This document shows, in pieces, positions 1 to 23,318 of a DNA stretch of 64,000 bases. Made by a program: the position numbers and the translations under genes. Position 1 is the stretch's first letter. Each line of letters begins with the position of its first letter. Source of the DNA: Desulfosporosinus sp. FKB (lineage in GTDB: Bacteria > Bacillota > Desulfitobacteriia > Desulfitobacteriales > Desulfitobacteriaceae); contig NZ_NADJ01000012.1 in assembly GCF_002196705.1 (NCBI RefSeq), positions 1-64,000 of the forward strand, read 5' to 3'. A model generated the notes under the pieces. The model had not been told where the DNA came from. It was given only the letters and a program-made list of their open reading frames with translations, and searched no databases.

Positions 1-1
1 T

Positions 2-106
2 TTTGGTAGATTTGTACGCAATCAAATTATACCAAAACCCTGTGTTCATGCGGAATTTTTATATCTGTTTGACCCAATTAAGCCGGAATTAGAGCTGATT
101 TATTAG
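2..106 (+). CDS. C-terminal end of an unrecognised protein (partial)
   Basis: An open frame enters from the left edge and runs 34 codons to a TAG at 104-106, ending in ELELIY. Codon use looks natural and the frame contains PKPCVHAEFLYLFDP-like residues, but I do not recognise the family. It could be the tail of a real gene or chance; only sequence to the left can decide. Confidence 0.3.
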   Translation, partial: FGRFVRNQIIPKPCVHAEFLYLFDPIKPELELIY

Positions 107-395
107 GTGCGAAACTTCAGTAATTAATTATGGATACAAATCACTTTCATATTATATTATTACAATCACTATAACTCAATCACTTCTTAACAAAAAAAAC
201 CCTGTTTTCACTTTTATCGTGATACAGAGGTTTTAATTGACAAGACTAAAGGTTTTAAATTTTCACCATGAAAAGGTCCTTCATTTAATGATGGGAGAAA
301 TTGAATTTTGTTCATGAAGGGTGTTAGCAACTAGTGGTGTGGTGAATTAGAATAAAGCATATAATCGTGGGAATAATCAACTGCTTAAAGTAAGG
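107..395. other. Intergenic stretch, weak hairpin only
   Basis: No convincing gene. A weak AAAACC...GGTTTT inverted repeat near 193-235 could act as a transcription terminator between the left-edge frame and the convergent pentapeptide gene. Confidence 0.3.
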
Positions 396-998
396 TTATA
401 TAATTTTTACCCCTAAAATTTGTACTATATCAACTGCTTGCAAGGCGTTTATCTTTGCCCCCTTGAGTTCACTGAACGTATCGGATAACGTAATACCCTC
501 GATTATACAATCTGAAAGGTCAATTCCTTTTAGTGAAGTTTTAAAGAAATCTGCTCTCTGAAAATTAACCGCTTTGAGGTTAATCTTTTTGAACTTCACC
601 TCCGAAAGAAATGCTTCTTGAAAGTTACAATCACTAATCGTACAGCTTTCCCATACTGATAATGTGCAATTTGCGTAACGGAATGAAGAATTAGATAACA
701 CTGCCTCTTTAAAAAGACTTTGGTTAAAATTGCTTCCACTGCCTTTACATTCTGATATTTTCGCTTTCTTCCAATAGCTATCTTCAAAAATGCAATTTGA
801 AAAATCGGAATTCATAAAGGCTGCATCATAAAAGCTAGTACGTGAAAAATTGCAATTAATAAATTGACACTTAACAAACTGTACCGACTCAAATTCAATC
901 CTTGAGATATCAACATTTGTAAGAACATCATTTACAAAACTTACATTCTTTATATAATTATCATCTAACCTTGCATCTGAAATCGATTTTTCTAACAT
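396..998 (-). CDS. Pentapeptide repeat protein (Qnr/McbG-like fold)
   Basis: 200 aa. From about residue 25 to 180 the protein is a run of A(D/N)LxX-type pentapeptides with F, L or C at the central inward-facing position every five residues (for example VKCQFINCNFSRTSF and FKKINLKAVNFQRADF). This pattern folds into a right-handed quadrilateral beta-helix. Members of this size include Qnr and McbG, which bind DNA gyrase and relieve quinolone or microcin inhibition, but many others have no known role. The start ATG is close to the end of the ORF and no operon partner is visible. The fold is well supported; gyrase protection is only a possibility. Confidence 0.8.
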   Translation of the reverse strand: MLEKSISDARLDDNYIKNVSFVNDVLTNVDISRIEFESVQFVKCQFINCNFSRTSFYDAAFMNSDFSNCIFEDSYWKKAKISECKGSGSNFNQSLFKEAVLSNSSFRYANCTLSVWESCTISDCNFQEAFLSEVKFKKINLKAVNFQRADFFKTSLKGIDLSDCIIEGITLSDTFSELKGAKINALQAVDIVQILGVKII

Positions 999-5082: not shown

Positions 5083-5200
5083 AACTGTTTGAAGCCTGAT
5101 CCTACAAACCGACTTCGAAGGACCTACCCTTCATTTCGGATACAGCACCGTGCTCTTCGAGCACGTTCTTGGGGCATCTCCAACTCCACACCACGCATGA
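5083..5200. repeat. Dispersed repeat, copy 1
   Basis: About 100 bp closely match 19866-19985 in the same orientation: CTGTTTGAAGC, TCCTACAAACCG, CCCTTCAT and GTGCTCTTCGAGCA blocks are shared with a few substitutions. GTGCTCTTCGAGCAC is itself a small hairpin. Read on the minus strand both copies keep a short frame with KN(V/M)LEEH...EMKG, so the repeat may derive from a lost coding sequence. Confidence 0.6.
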
Positions 5201-17399: not shown

Positions 17400-18530
17400 T
17401 TATGACTTCACTACCGTACCATCCCTAAAGGTAAATTGAATATTATCGGAAGCATAGATTGTAACCTTATCTAGGACCGCATACCATAGGGTTTCATCAA
17501 ACTCCGTCAAAATAGAATCCTGCTGTAACACCGTATCAAGAAAGGTATCCAATTGTTCTCGTTTTACTCGACGGGCTTGGCGTTGATCCTCGATCTTTTT
17601 AATTTCATCCTTGGCCTTCTCGTATCGCATTACTAGTCCCATATAGCGTTGTTGGTATTCCAATTGGTCTAAGCCTATGCGCGAGTTCTCCTCAACACAT
17701 TGCCGAATCAGCTCAGTAACCAGGGTAAGCTCGTGCTGCAAATCTTCAGTTTGAACATTCAAAGAAGTGGTATCCGTCAGCACATGCTTTATCATTTTAC
17801 AGTTCTCTATAATCTCATCTTTATTGCTAATCAATTGGTTCATGGAATTCAAAAATAATTGCTTTAGGGTGTCTTCATAAACATGTGGGGTACCACAATT
17901 ATTGGGGCCTTTAAATTTATGGTTACATTGCCAAATCGTTCGCCGGTAGTTGCTGGTGGAGTGCCAAACCTTTGAGCCGAAGAAACTTCCGCACTCCCCG
18001 CAAACAATTTTACTAGAGAAACAGTTTGCCCCACTGTGATGTCCACCGTTTTCTTTTCGCCGTTTCATCTCAAATTGAACCATATCGTATACATCCGGCT
18101 CGACAATCGCCGGATGACTGTTTTCTACATAATACTTGGGGATCTCTCCCTCGTTCACTTTTTTCTGTTTTGTGAGAAAGTCTACTGTAAAGGTCTTTTG
18201 AAGGAGCGCATCTCCTCTGTATTTCTCGTTGGTAAGAATACTTTCGACCGTACTGACCTGCCATTTCTGTTTACCTGATGGTGTTGGAATTTCATTTTTA
18301 GTGAGGTGATTTGCAATGCCCGACGGAGTCTTCCCTTCAAGAAAAAGCCGATAAATTAGCCTTACAGTAGCAGCTTCTGATTCCACAATCTTTGGCAGAC
18401 CATCGTTACCCTTTTCGTAACCAAGGAACTGCTTATAGGGAAGACTGACCTTCCCGTCGGCAAAACGCTTTCTTTGACCCCACGTTACGTTTTCAGAAAT
18501 ACTTCGGCTTTCCTCTTGGCAGAGACGAGG
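17400..18530 (-). pseudogene. Large serine recombinase lacking its catalytic domain
   Basis: The open frame from 18386 gives 328 aa, but coding similarity continues upstream to about 18530 (QEESRSISENVTWGQRKRF, PYKQFLGYEKG) where it breaks off. Present are the end of the resolvase domain, the recombinase domain (VRLIYRLFLEGKTPSGIANHL), the zinc ribbon (CGECGSFFGS...WQCNHK...C) and the C-terminal coiled coil. The N-terminal segment with the catalytic serine is deleted, so it cannot cut DNA. Such enzymes integrate ICEs, Tn4451-like elements and phages. A truncated protein might still bind att sites. Confidence 0.85.
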
Positions 18531-19793: not shown

Positions 19794-19865
19794 ATAGACA
19801 AAAATATGTAAGAAGTCCATGAGCGGTTTATTACACCACCGCATAATTTTTGGATGATCAGCTTA

Positions 19866-19985
19866 CGTCTGTTTGAAGCTTCTCCTACAAACCGGCTTTG
19901 AAGGGACTCCCTTCATCTCAGGTACAACATCGTGCTCTTCGAGCATGTTCTTGGCACAACCCAACGCCCCCGGCTGGGCCAATAC
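19866..19985. repeat. Dispersed repeat, copy 2
   Basis: Matches 5083-5200 over about 100 bp in the same orientation. On the minus strand it keeps an open frame of some 40 codons containing GCAKNMLEEHDVVPEMKG and ending in CRRSFKQT. The other copy is interrupted. The rest of the 19794-20126 gap contains nothing else clear. Confidence 0.6.
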
Positions 19986-20896: not shown

Positions 20897-21028
20897 TTAT
20901 ACTTTGGCTATTTGCGCCAGCCCATAACGCTCTTCGAATAGAAAGGCCACCTCCGGTGACCGCACACTCAAGACAAAGCACTTGACTGCTGGATAGGCTT
21001 TATGAAGACGTGTTATTTCAAACCGCAT
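20897..21028 (-). CDS. Small ORF overlapping the helicase end (43 aa)
   Basis: ATG at 21028 overlaps the helicase stop by 11 bp. The product MRFEITRLHKAYPAVKCFVL... with VRSPEVAFLFEERYGLAQI has good protein composition and a basic-aromatic pattern. It may be a coupled partner, or the displaced C-terminus of an ancestral longer helicase. No family recognised. Confidence 0.4.
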   Translation of the reverse strand: MRFEITRLHKAYPAVKCFVLSVRSPEVAFLFEERYGLAQIAKV

Positions 21029-22352
21029 GTTCTTCTTGAACTTGGCAAGGCGAAACCGGTGGGTGAGTTAGTATCGCATTTGCAGCTTCAAATGGCTTAC
21101 TGTCACTTTTGGCTGAATATCCTATGGCGGCATATCCTTTAAGCCTCTTTTGGTACATCCGCTCAAGTACACCAACCTGGATATCCACGTAATCATAAAT
21201 CTGCACTTCATTCTTGTTTTGATACACCCTATGAAGACGTCCGGCATATTGCTGAACTGTCCCTTTCCAGGCAACAGGCATTGCTAGAAATAGTGTAACT
21301 AACCTCGGTTCGTCAAATCCCTCACCAACAAATCTACCCGTGGCAACAATAACAATATTACTATCATGAGGAATACTTGATAGCATTTCCAGCTTGGCTT
21401 TTCTTTCTTTAGTCGTCATTCTGCCAGTTAACTCAATAACATTGGGAATAGATTTCGCTAATTCCTCTGCAATCAGTTCAACATGCGCTTTCCTCTCAGT
21501 CAATATAATAGGGTTCCGTCCTTCTTTTACACATCTAATTACATCATCAATAATTAATTGATTGCGAATTTGGCTAGTACTGATTTCAGAATATATTTCC
21601 CCAATAGACCATTCCTTTTCGTCTTGGCTAACCGGTTTTCTAAATGACGTAAAGCGTGGAATGATATACTGCTCAAAAGGTCTTTTTTCAGCTTGCTTTC
21701 TGGCATCCACCTTATATCGAACCGGACCGCAGTGCATGAATATTATGGGATGATGCCCATCCTGCCTCACAGGAGTCGCTGTAAGCTCGTAAATATATTT
21801 TGCCGAGACGTTTTTAAGTATCTGTTCAAAGCTGAACGCAGGTACGTGGTGGCATTCATCAACAATAACCATGCCATAATCCCGGACAACATCTTTTACT
21901 TCGTCACCTTTTACCAATGACTGCATAACCGCAATATCGATAATCCCACTTAAATTCTTCCTGCCTCCGCCAAACTGTCCAATAATACTACGAACCTTTT
22001 TCCTGCCTCTTCTTGTAACAGGATCTGCGGGCAACTCTTCATCTATTATCAAGAATTGGGTCAACCGCTCTTTCCATTGCTCCAATAGCTGCTGCGTATG
22101 AACAAGTACAAGCGTGTTGACTTTTCTTTCAGCTATTAGTTTTGCCCCTATTACAGTCTTTCCCAAAGCAGTTGTTGCAGATAAAACCCCATTATTGTGT
22201 TGCAACATATGACTTACGGCATCTACCTGTTCGTCGCGAAGCTGACCATTAAATTTAACCTTTATGGTTTTGCCCAAAAAGGTTTCGTCTTCCCATTTGA
22301 TATCGGCTCTCAATGGTTCAAATAAATTTGTTAAATTAATCTCACAACCTCT
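21018..22352 (-). CDS. Superfamily II helicase of a TOTE conflict system, primase domain deleted
   Basis: Coding similarity starts near 22352 (RGCEINLTNLFEPL) although the first usable start is a TTG at 22313. Motif I is TTALGKTVIGAKLI, motif II VDECHHV, motif III ELTATPVR, and motif VI QYAGRLHRVY, with the C-terminal block VLERMYQKRLKGYAAIGY. This is the helicase of the TOTE primase-helicase proteins (about 900-1000 aa). There the N-terminal coiled coil and an archaeo-eukaryotic primase precede it. Here the coiled coil survives as a separate frame at 22342-22458 and about 400 codons in between are missing. The usual C-terminal extension is also absent. Translation initiation is uncertain. 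Confidence 0.75.
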   Translation of the reverse strand, partial: RGCEINLTNLFEPLRADIKWEDETFLGKTIKVKFNGQLRDEQVDAVSHMLQHNNGVLSATTALGKTVIGAKLIAERKVNTLVLVHTQQLLEQWKERLTQFLIIDEELPADPVTRRGRKKVRSIIGQFGGGRKNLSGIIDIAVMQSLVKGDEVKDVVRDYGMVIVDECHHVPAFSFEQILKNVSAKYIYELTATPVRQDGHHPIIFMHCGPVRYKVDARKQAEKRPFEQYIIPRFTSFRKPVSQDEKEWSIGEIYSEISTSQIRNQLIIDDVIRCVKEGRNPIILTERKAHVELIAEELAKSIPNVIELTGRMTTKERKAKLEMLSSIPHDSNIVIVATGRFVGEGFDEPRLVTLFLAMPVAWKGTVQQYAGRLHRVYQNKNEVQIYDYVDIQVGVLERMYQKRLKGYAAIGYSAKSDSKPFEAANAILTHPPVSPCQVQEEHAV

Positions 22353-22458
22353 TCAATGCCAAACCAAGCCGAATTTTGAAATTTTCATTTTCAACCTTCA
22401 GTCTTTTATTCTCTTCCAGCAGCTTTTGATATTTTCCATAAAGTTCTTCGTAATTCAT
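22342..22458 (-). pseudogene. N-terminal coiled-coil stub of the TOTE primase-helicase
   Basis: MNYEELYGKYQKLLEENKRL, then KVENENFKIRLGLALKR, is the usual beginning of TOTE primase-helicases. It ends in TGA at 22342-22344 where it runs into the helicase in another frame. So an internal deletion removed the primase and shifted the frame. Confidence 0.7.
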
Positions 22459-22689: not shown

Positions 22690-23016
22690 TTACTGATTAA
22701 TCCTTTTCATCTGTTTATTGATGTCCCTTCTTTCATACATAATACGGATAACGATAACTATTTCATCATCAGCATTTGGAATATAAAATACAATGAAATT
22801 ATCTACTTGCATCTGTCGTAGTCCTCTACTGTACCATGGTTCTTTTTCAAAGACTCGAAATCGCTCAGGCATTTCATTCAAGCTCAGTATTCCTTTTTCA
22901 ATTCTTTCCAATTGTCTAACTGCTGTCTCAGGCTCAAGCAAAGTAAACGCAATATATTCATAGATGGCTCTCAAATCAGTATCGGCTTGTTTTGTTAATA
23001 TAATCTTGTATGTCAT
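22690..23016 (-). CDS. RelE/ParE-family toxin
   Basis: 108 aa. YKIILTKQADTDLRAIYEYIAF is the standard N-terminal strand-helix of the family, and the C-terminal VDNFIVFYIPN...VIRIMYERRDI gives the basic/aromatic patch of RelE-type folds. RelE proteins cut mRNA in the ribosome; ParE proteins poison gyrase; sequence alone does not separate them here. The gene overlaps the antitoxin gene by 4 bp. Complete and probably active. Confidence 0.88.
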   Translation of the reverse strand: MTYKIILTKQADTDLRAIYEYIAFTLLEPETAVRQLERIEKGILSLNEMPERFRVFEKEPWYSRGLRQMQVDNFIVFYIPNADDEIVIVIRIMYERRDINKQMKRINQ

Positions 23017-23318
23017 ATGCCGTAATCTCTATGGATATCCGAAAAAACCTTCTCTGCAGATTTTGTATTTCCTTGAGTGAAATCAGTATATCCTTTTTCC
23101 AATTCTTCATTAATCTCTTTCTCAGTTAAGTCTGAAAGTGCTGCATGTTGTATAGGAGGAAGCTTAACATCAAAAGGAATTCCTCTCTGCATAACAACCT
23201 GTTTTAAAAATATATTTACTGCATTAGATACCGGAATACCCAATTGCCCTAAAACTGATTCTGCCTGTTCCTTAAGCCCTGGTTCAAGCCTTACATAGAG
23301 ATTTGTTGTTTTGGCCAT
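23013..23318 (-). CDS. RelB/DinJ-family antitoxin
   Basis: 101 aa. N-terminal ribbon-helix-helix (TTNLYVRLEPGLKEQAESVLGQLGI) followed by VSNAVNIFLKQVV, the DinJ signature, and an acidic C-terminus (LTEKEINEELEKGY) that would wrap the toxin. The operon probably represses itself; the AT-rich repeat (TATA)n at 23337-23349 lies at the promoter. Confidence 0.88.
   Translation of the reverse strand: MAKTTNLYVRLEPGLKEQAESVLGQLGIPVSNAVNIFLKQVVMQRGIPFDVKLPPIQHAALSDLTEKEINEELEKGYTDFTQGNTKSAEKVFSDIHRDYGI

Follow-up and report, generated by a model that had tools for sequence, protein, structure and literature searches.

The segment at 20,897-22,458 of the window (by which we mean the whole 64,000-nucleotide stretch of Desulfosporosinus sp. 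FKB DNA analyzed here) is very probably the decaying remnant of a primase-helicase-PLD gene of the AEP-TOTE family (PF22548), whose ancestor lay behind a serine recombinase gene, as its counterpart in the related genome G051 does. On this reading the ancestral gene was mobile and probably defensive. A single internal deletion took out the primase and broke the reading frame. A second rearrangement removed the nuclease-like PLD domain, where a group II intron-like fragment now stands, and the upstream recombinase gene is cut down to its tail. The ancestral protein would have acted against foreign DNA, in defence. Deprived of both primase and PLD and lacking a well-placed start for translation, the helicase frame would now be drifting, and it would still be open because the deletion is recent. 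Coordinates are collected in Table 1.

Table 1. Features of the remnant in the window, and extent of broken copies in other genomes of the order.
Feature	Position	Strand	Basis or remark
Serine recombinase gene tail, about the last 11 codons	22540..22577	-	stop 22542-22540; homology to G051
N-terminal coiled-coil frame	22345..22458	-	38 codons, ATG 22458-22456, stop 22344-22342
Deletion junction, frame shifted	22353..22354	-	DNA homology on both sides
SF2 helicase region, homologous to AEP-TOTE-type primase-helicases	21073..22353	-	DNA and domain matches
Second breakpoint, C-terminal PLDc_2 absent beyond	21073..21078	-	end of homology
Dispersed fragment resembling the 5' portion of group II introns	20920..21070	-	copies in other genomes
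Broken copy, G003	lacks 247-926		G002 numbering
Broken copy, G013	lacks 193-260		G002 numbering
Broken copy, G040	lacks 252-440		G002 numbering
Broken copy, G017	622-987 only		G002 numbering; helicase end and PLD
Broken copy, G020			G002 numbering; 9 stops
Broken copy, G050	59-138 and 851-920 only		G051 numbering
Broken copy, G054	lacks 1-257		G051 numbering
Broken copy, G053	1-166 only		G051 numbering
Broken copies, G025, G030, G038			short fragments only

Both halves of the remnant trace back to the same kind of protein. Open frames of 989-991 codons in three genomes of the genus (G002, G009, G028) contain, in this order, the coiled coil, an AEP-TOTE primase, a helicase and a PLD domain; a closer intact relative, from the same order, is G051:C1 (968 aa from its ATG). 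Translated from 22458-22351(-), the coiled coil is 83% identical to residues 1-36 of the G051 protein (E 9e-11) and 42-49% identical to the first ~40 residues of the more distant same-genus proteins (E 0.025 to 3e-5). The helicase, from 22352-21063(-), matches the G051 protein at 82% over 430 aa and the three same-genus proteins at 58-60%, from their residues 425-429 on. At the DNA level its identity is 89% to L022 and 81% to G051 (79-89% across L022, G051 and G054) and 66% to G002; the nearest relative found is the locus L013/L022, at 88% protein identity. The helicase is homologous over its whole length to AEP-TOTE primase-helicase(-PLD) proteins, and their N-terminal coiled coil, which is in frame with the rest, has its homologue here, out of frame.

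A first-pass annotation of this DNA had proposed that the coiled coil meets the helicase out of frame, at about 22352, with the archaeo-eukaryotic primase missing, and each of these points is borne out. On the 5' side DNA homology to G051 covers 22577-22354, and helicase homology to both L022 and G051 sets in at 22353. Between L113:5598 and 6705, 1106 nt of G051 (L113:5599-6704) are without counterpart in the window, and they contain the entire primase domain PF22548 (residues 69-296 of the G051 protein); alignment with full-length relatives, recommended in that annotation, defines the deletion. No separate primase gene was found elsewhere in the same genome: a protein search returned none, and neither did a PF22548 family search, which had hits in 26 of the order's 73 genomes. 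Nor does the helicase belong to a family that never had a primase, since a primase-region match lies upstream in all 67 informative loci, and the homology of the coiled coil to G051 disposes of the idea that the upstream frame is unrelated. As the two frames abut at the junction, one could envision frameshifting, programmed or by chance, that joins them into a single coiled coil-helicase. This is extremely unlikely: the coiled-coil frame meets a second stop at 22338-22336 after the one that closes it, a stop in the helicase frame spans the junction itself (22355-22353), and the junction is a deletion scar that none of the 67 informative loci carries.

The primase deletion must postdate the split from L013/L022, because in that copy the latter half of the primase survives and reads in frame into the helicase; pairwise dS between the two is 0.42. 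Among the sequences compared, the loss is private to the window lineage. The L013/L022 copy is found at the start of a contig and opens with 235 nt that align with no part of the gene; it, too, may be broken, in a manner of its own.

The interval given in the annotation does hold the coiled coil and helicase, but its 20897-21072 portion is not helicase and includes an unrelated repeat. The helicase ORF ends at 21018, but homology stops at 21073 when compared with G051 and G054 and at 21078 with L022. What is missing beyond is the PLDc_2 domain, residues 843-967 of the G051 protein, which the close relatives L013-L017, L023-L028, L065, L068 and L083 possess. A PLD domain was found in 60 of the 77 loci whose downstream sequence extends to 500 nt or more, and is therefore usual, not universal; it is absent in the window. 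The dispersed fragment occupies its place, with edges that differ with the copy compared, and is matched in 11 of the 29 genomes examined in the genus, the window genome included. Seven of these loci were scanned for intron models: three copies (L135, L136, L137) overlap Rfam RF02005, a fourth (L011) sits immediately downstream of RF01999, and the remaining three returned no model. The window's own copy matched no intron model. The possibility that 20900-21064 encodes a true protein C-terminus was ruled out, as this stretch has no Pfam match and belongs to a dispersed repeat. Elsewhere in the window, two copies of a 46-nt repeat (5127-5172 and 19909-19954, 87% identical) resemble part of L011 by eye, and at 19818-19914(-) a group II intron model scores below threshold (E 0.14); these are perhaps further intron debris. 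Five dispersed copies of a 100-nt repeat between 33186 and 47625 (61-87% to the copy used as reference), together with several more repeat pairs, are perhaps duplicated gene neighbourhoods.

DNA homology to G051 is continuous from 22577, in the recombinase tail, into the coiled coil; the tail itself reads YKSGGQAEICF against YKNGEQTKICF (64%, E 0.008 in a small search). In G051 and L068 the primase-helicase gene is flanked directly by a serine recombinase gene on its upstream side and by a RhuM-family gene on its downstream side. The same order is found in G054, where the recombinase is partial; G053 has a recombinase before its gene fragment, and L065 and G038 have recombinase pieces. The recombinase was not found in the other loci searched, including the intact same-genus copies in G002 and G028, so that its link with the gene is limited to one part of the family. 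The ancestor of the window gene belonged to that part, since its own 5' flank holds a recombinase tail. The module formed by serine recombinase, primase-helicase-PLD and RhuM genes (L113:2763-8152 in G051; also L068, and in part L114 of G054) could be an integrative element with a defence-like gene as cargo. Further along the window, 17400-18524(-) encodes a serine recombinase fragment with Recombinase and zinc ribbon domains, in which the N-terminal resolvase domain was not found and which is 38% identical to the G051 recombinase; it is another mobile DNA remnant near that of the helicase. A RelB-ParE toxin-antitoxin pair sits directly upstream of the remnant (22690-23318(-)), and in G002 an ORF pair that resembles a toxin-antitoxin by eye lies directly downstream of the intact gene (L128:8847-9420).

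The genome is a draft in 40 contigs, and an intact gene mis-joined during assembly might look broken in this way. The probability of such an error is very small: the remnant shows three separate truncations with different neighbouring sequence at each, the primase is not found elsewhere in the genome, and comparable breaks are seen elsewhere, among others in G050 and G054, whose genomes are each a single contig.

A more serious alternative is that the helicase lived on as a functional protein of its own once primase and PLD had been lost. The open frame runs from 22352 to 21018(-), stop included, with no stop over 444 codons, and contains the domains ResIII, DEAD and Helicase_C. Its first usual start codon, TTG 22313, would give 431 codons (22313-21018(-)) and lies 28 nt after the coiled-coil stop, a short distance for re-initiation. 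However, TTG 22313 has no Shine-Dalgarno-like sequence by eye; TTG 22277 has a distant GGGAAG, and the first ATG is codon 49. The helicase frame is without a well-placed start codon, and promoter-like matches are not above chance (6 found against 9.2 in shuffles).

The statement in the annotation that the helicase keeps every motif proved too strong. Three near-invariant residues are altered (F63L, G189E and D352V), at columns 99-100% conserved in the other rows of the alignment. F63L lies beside the Walker A lysine and G189E before TATP. At 89 near-invariant columns the window has 3 changes, whereas 11 of 13 close relatives have none and two have one (L016 and L027 look like the same gene); at least three changes are seen in 14 of the 85 sequences, window included. 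The 85 rows leave out L001, L010 and L022 (copies of the window or of L013), L002 and L003 (unrelated helicases), L072, L087 and L094 (internal stop), and matches not spanning query residues 14-399.

Maximum-likelihood analysis gave the window branch an omega (dN/dS) of 0.223 against 0.081 for the background (p 0.0006), the highest among nine terminal branches. These tests used 414 gap-free codons from 9 of 17 aligned sequences, distant or near-identical ones being omitted by choice. The branch test is noisy, because L068 and L023 also deviate (higher omega, p 0.03, and lower, p 0.0015, respectively) and short branches tend to be higher; a parsimony count was not significant (28 synonymous and 23 nonsynonymous changes vs 28 and 17, 51 ambiguous, p 0.54). 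An omega of 1 over the whole window branch was rejected (p 4e-5), so the helicase has been under selection for most of it. Taken together, these results indicate that selection was lost or weakened late on the branch after holding for most of it; if that late phase is neutral, it would need to span roughly 15% of the branch to account for the raised omega. That an omega of 1 is rejected for the branch as a whole speaks for a retained helicase, but recent loss accounts for it equally well. The altered residues and raised omega count against retention, as does the finding that none of the 67 informative loci has such a form, and we consider a working helicase re-initiated at TTG 22313 very unlikely. 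The fuller version of this idea, in which a defence primase-helicase was turned into a small stand-alone helicase by shedding its costly primase and PLD parts and re-initiating at that codon, is quite improbable. Were it true, the protein might keep DNA unwinding for repair, or pair with incoming full-length copies in a dominant-negative manner.

A decaying gene therefore remains the preferred reading. Between the two fates offered by the annotation, the "dying element" fits best with the lack of a good start, the raised omega, the altered residues and the absence of a shared form; the "recycled helicase" keeps in its favor the open frame and the rejection of whole-branch neutrality, but has little support, as recent loss explains these as well. 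The annotation was right about the internal primase deletion and overlooked the loss of PLD, the recombinase tail upstream and the three changed helicase residues.

The comparison with relatives bears on whether the short form is ever selected. A genome scan yielded 79 loci, of which 67, with 1350 nt or more upstream, are informative and 12 are not. A primase was scored as upstream when at least 60 residues matched coiled coil plus primase, so that a partial primase (L092) counts. The short form is common to none of the 67; the annotation had suggested that a form shared by relatives would argue for selection. Within the order, 28 of 73 genomes (one per species) bear a trace of the gene, namely the 26 with a PF22548 match, the window genome and G017. 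By our count, 11 of the 73 carry the gene as an open frame of 810-1042 codons that includes a complete primase domain, and 12, the window genome included, have copies broken inside a contig, each differently (G000, G003, G013, G040, G017, G020, G050, G054, G053, G025, G030, G038; Table 1). Copies in G005, G044 and G071 run to a contig end, and G010 and G019 have a distant primase only. Cut-offs in the helicase search were E <=1e-90 for the order and 1e-40 for the genus, at which small helicase fragments may be missed. As far as sequence comparison goes, differing internal breaks that are common in the order would fit a costly mobile gene and not a selected short form. A search for relatives in viral contigs gave ten pattern matches, none of them confirmed. 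Phage records gave 1377 matches, all below 60% (26-28% among the 15 matches listed), and plasmid records gave 275, two of them at 60% or more (45-49% among the 20 matches listed).

The closest known proteins are the AEP-TOTE primase-helicase-PLD proteins (PF22548, SF2 helicase and PLDc_2), such as G051:C1 and L068. The window shares with G051 the coiled coil, the helicase, the 5' flank and the upstream recombinase tail, and differs from it in lacking primase, PLD and the RhuM neighbour and in its broken frame. The nearest solved sequences to the helicase are XPB/Rad25-type helicases (PDB 6p4f and 5tnu, XPBII), but only helicase residues 20-216 align and the domains that accompany the helicase in the relatives are different ones. 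CRISPR-associated PrimPol (PADLOC PDLC01465) resembles two intact relatives in their primase part (E 6e-92 and 3e-92), a part that is missing in the window. TOTE systems are defined, in the excerpted text of PMC12458937, by TPR, OB, TBP and Effector genes, and the likeness to them lies in the Pfam name of the lost domain. No TBP gene was found in the window genome or 14 relatives (0 of 15), although 4 of 14 control genomes, all archaea, were positive. TPR, OB/CSD and TBP were not found among nine neighbour genes scanned in the loci of four relatives, nor TPR and OB/CSD in eight window frames scanned, neighbours included. Our literature searches found nothing on TOTE conflict systems with primase and helicase, nor on AEP-TOTE, and the excerpted text of PMC10910872 makes no mention of TOTE. 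The label "TOTE conflict system" used in the annotation is loose; we would call the gene a remnant of an AEP-TOTE-family primase-helicase-PLD gene.

The window gene itself is an ordinary relic. Of mild wider use is the finding that, by our count, broken and whole copies are about equally frequent in this order (12 against 11 of 73 genomes). This pattern would fit a costly, probably defensive mobile gene disabled by its hosts, because the breaks are common, the internal deletions differ and a serine recombinase adjoins the gene in some lineages. The breakpoints in the order form a natural set for asking which domain is the costly one. The existence of differently broken copies in related bacteria suggests ordinary decay of a mobile gene, not a new function.
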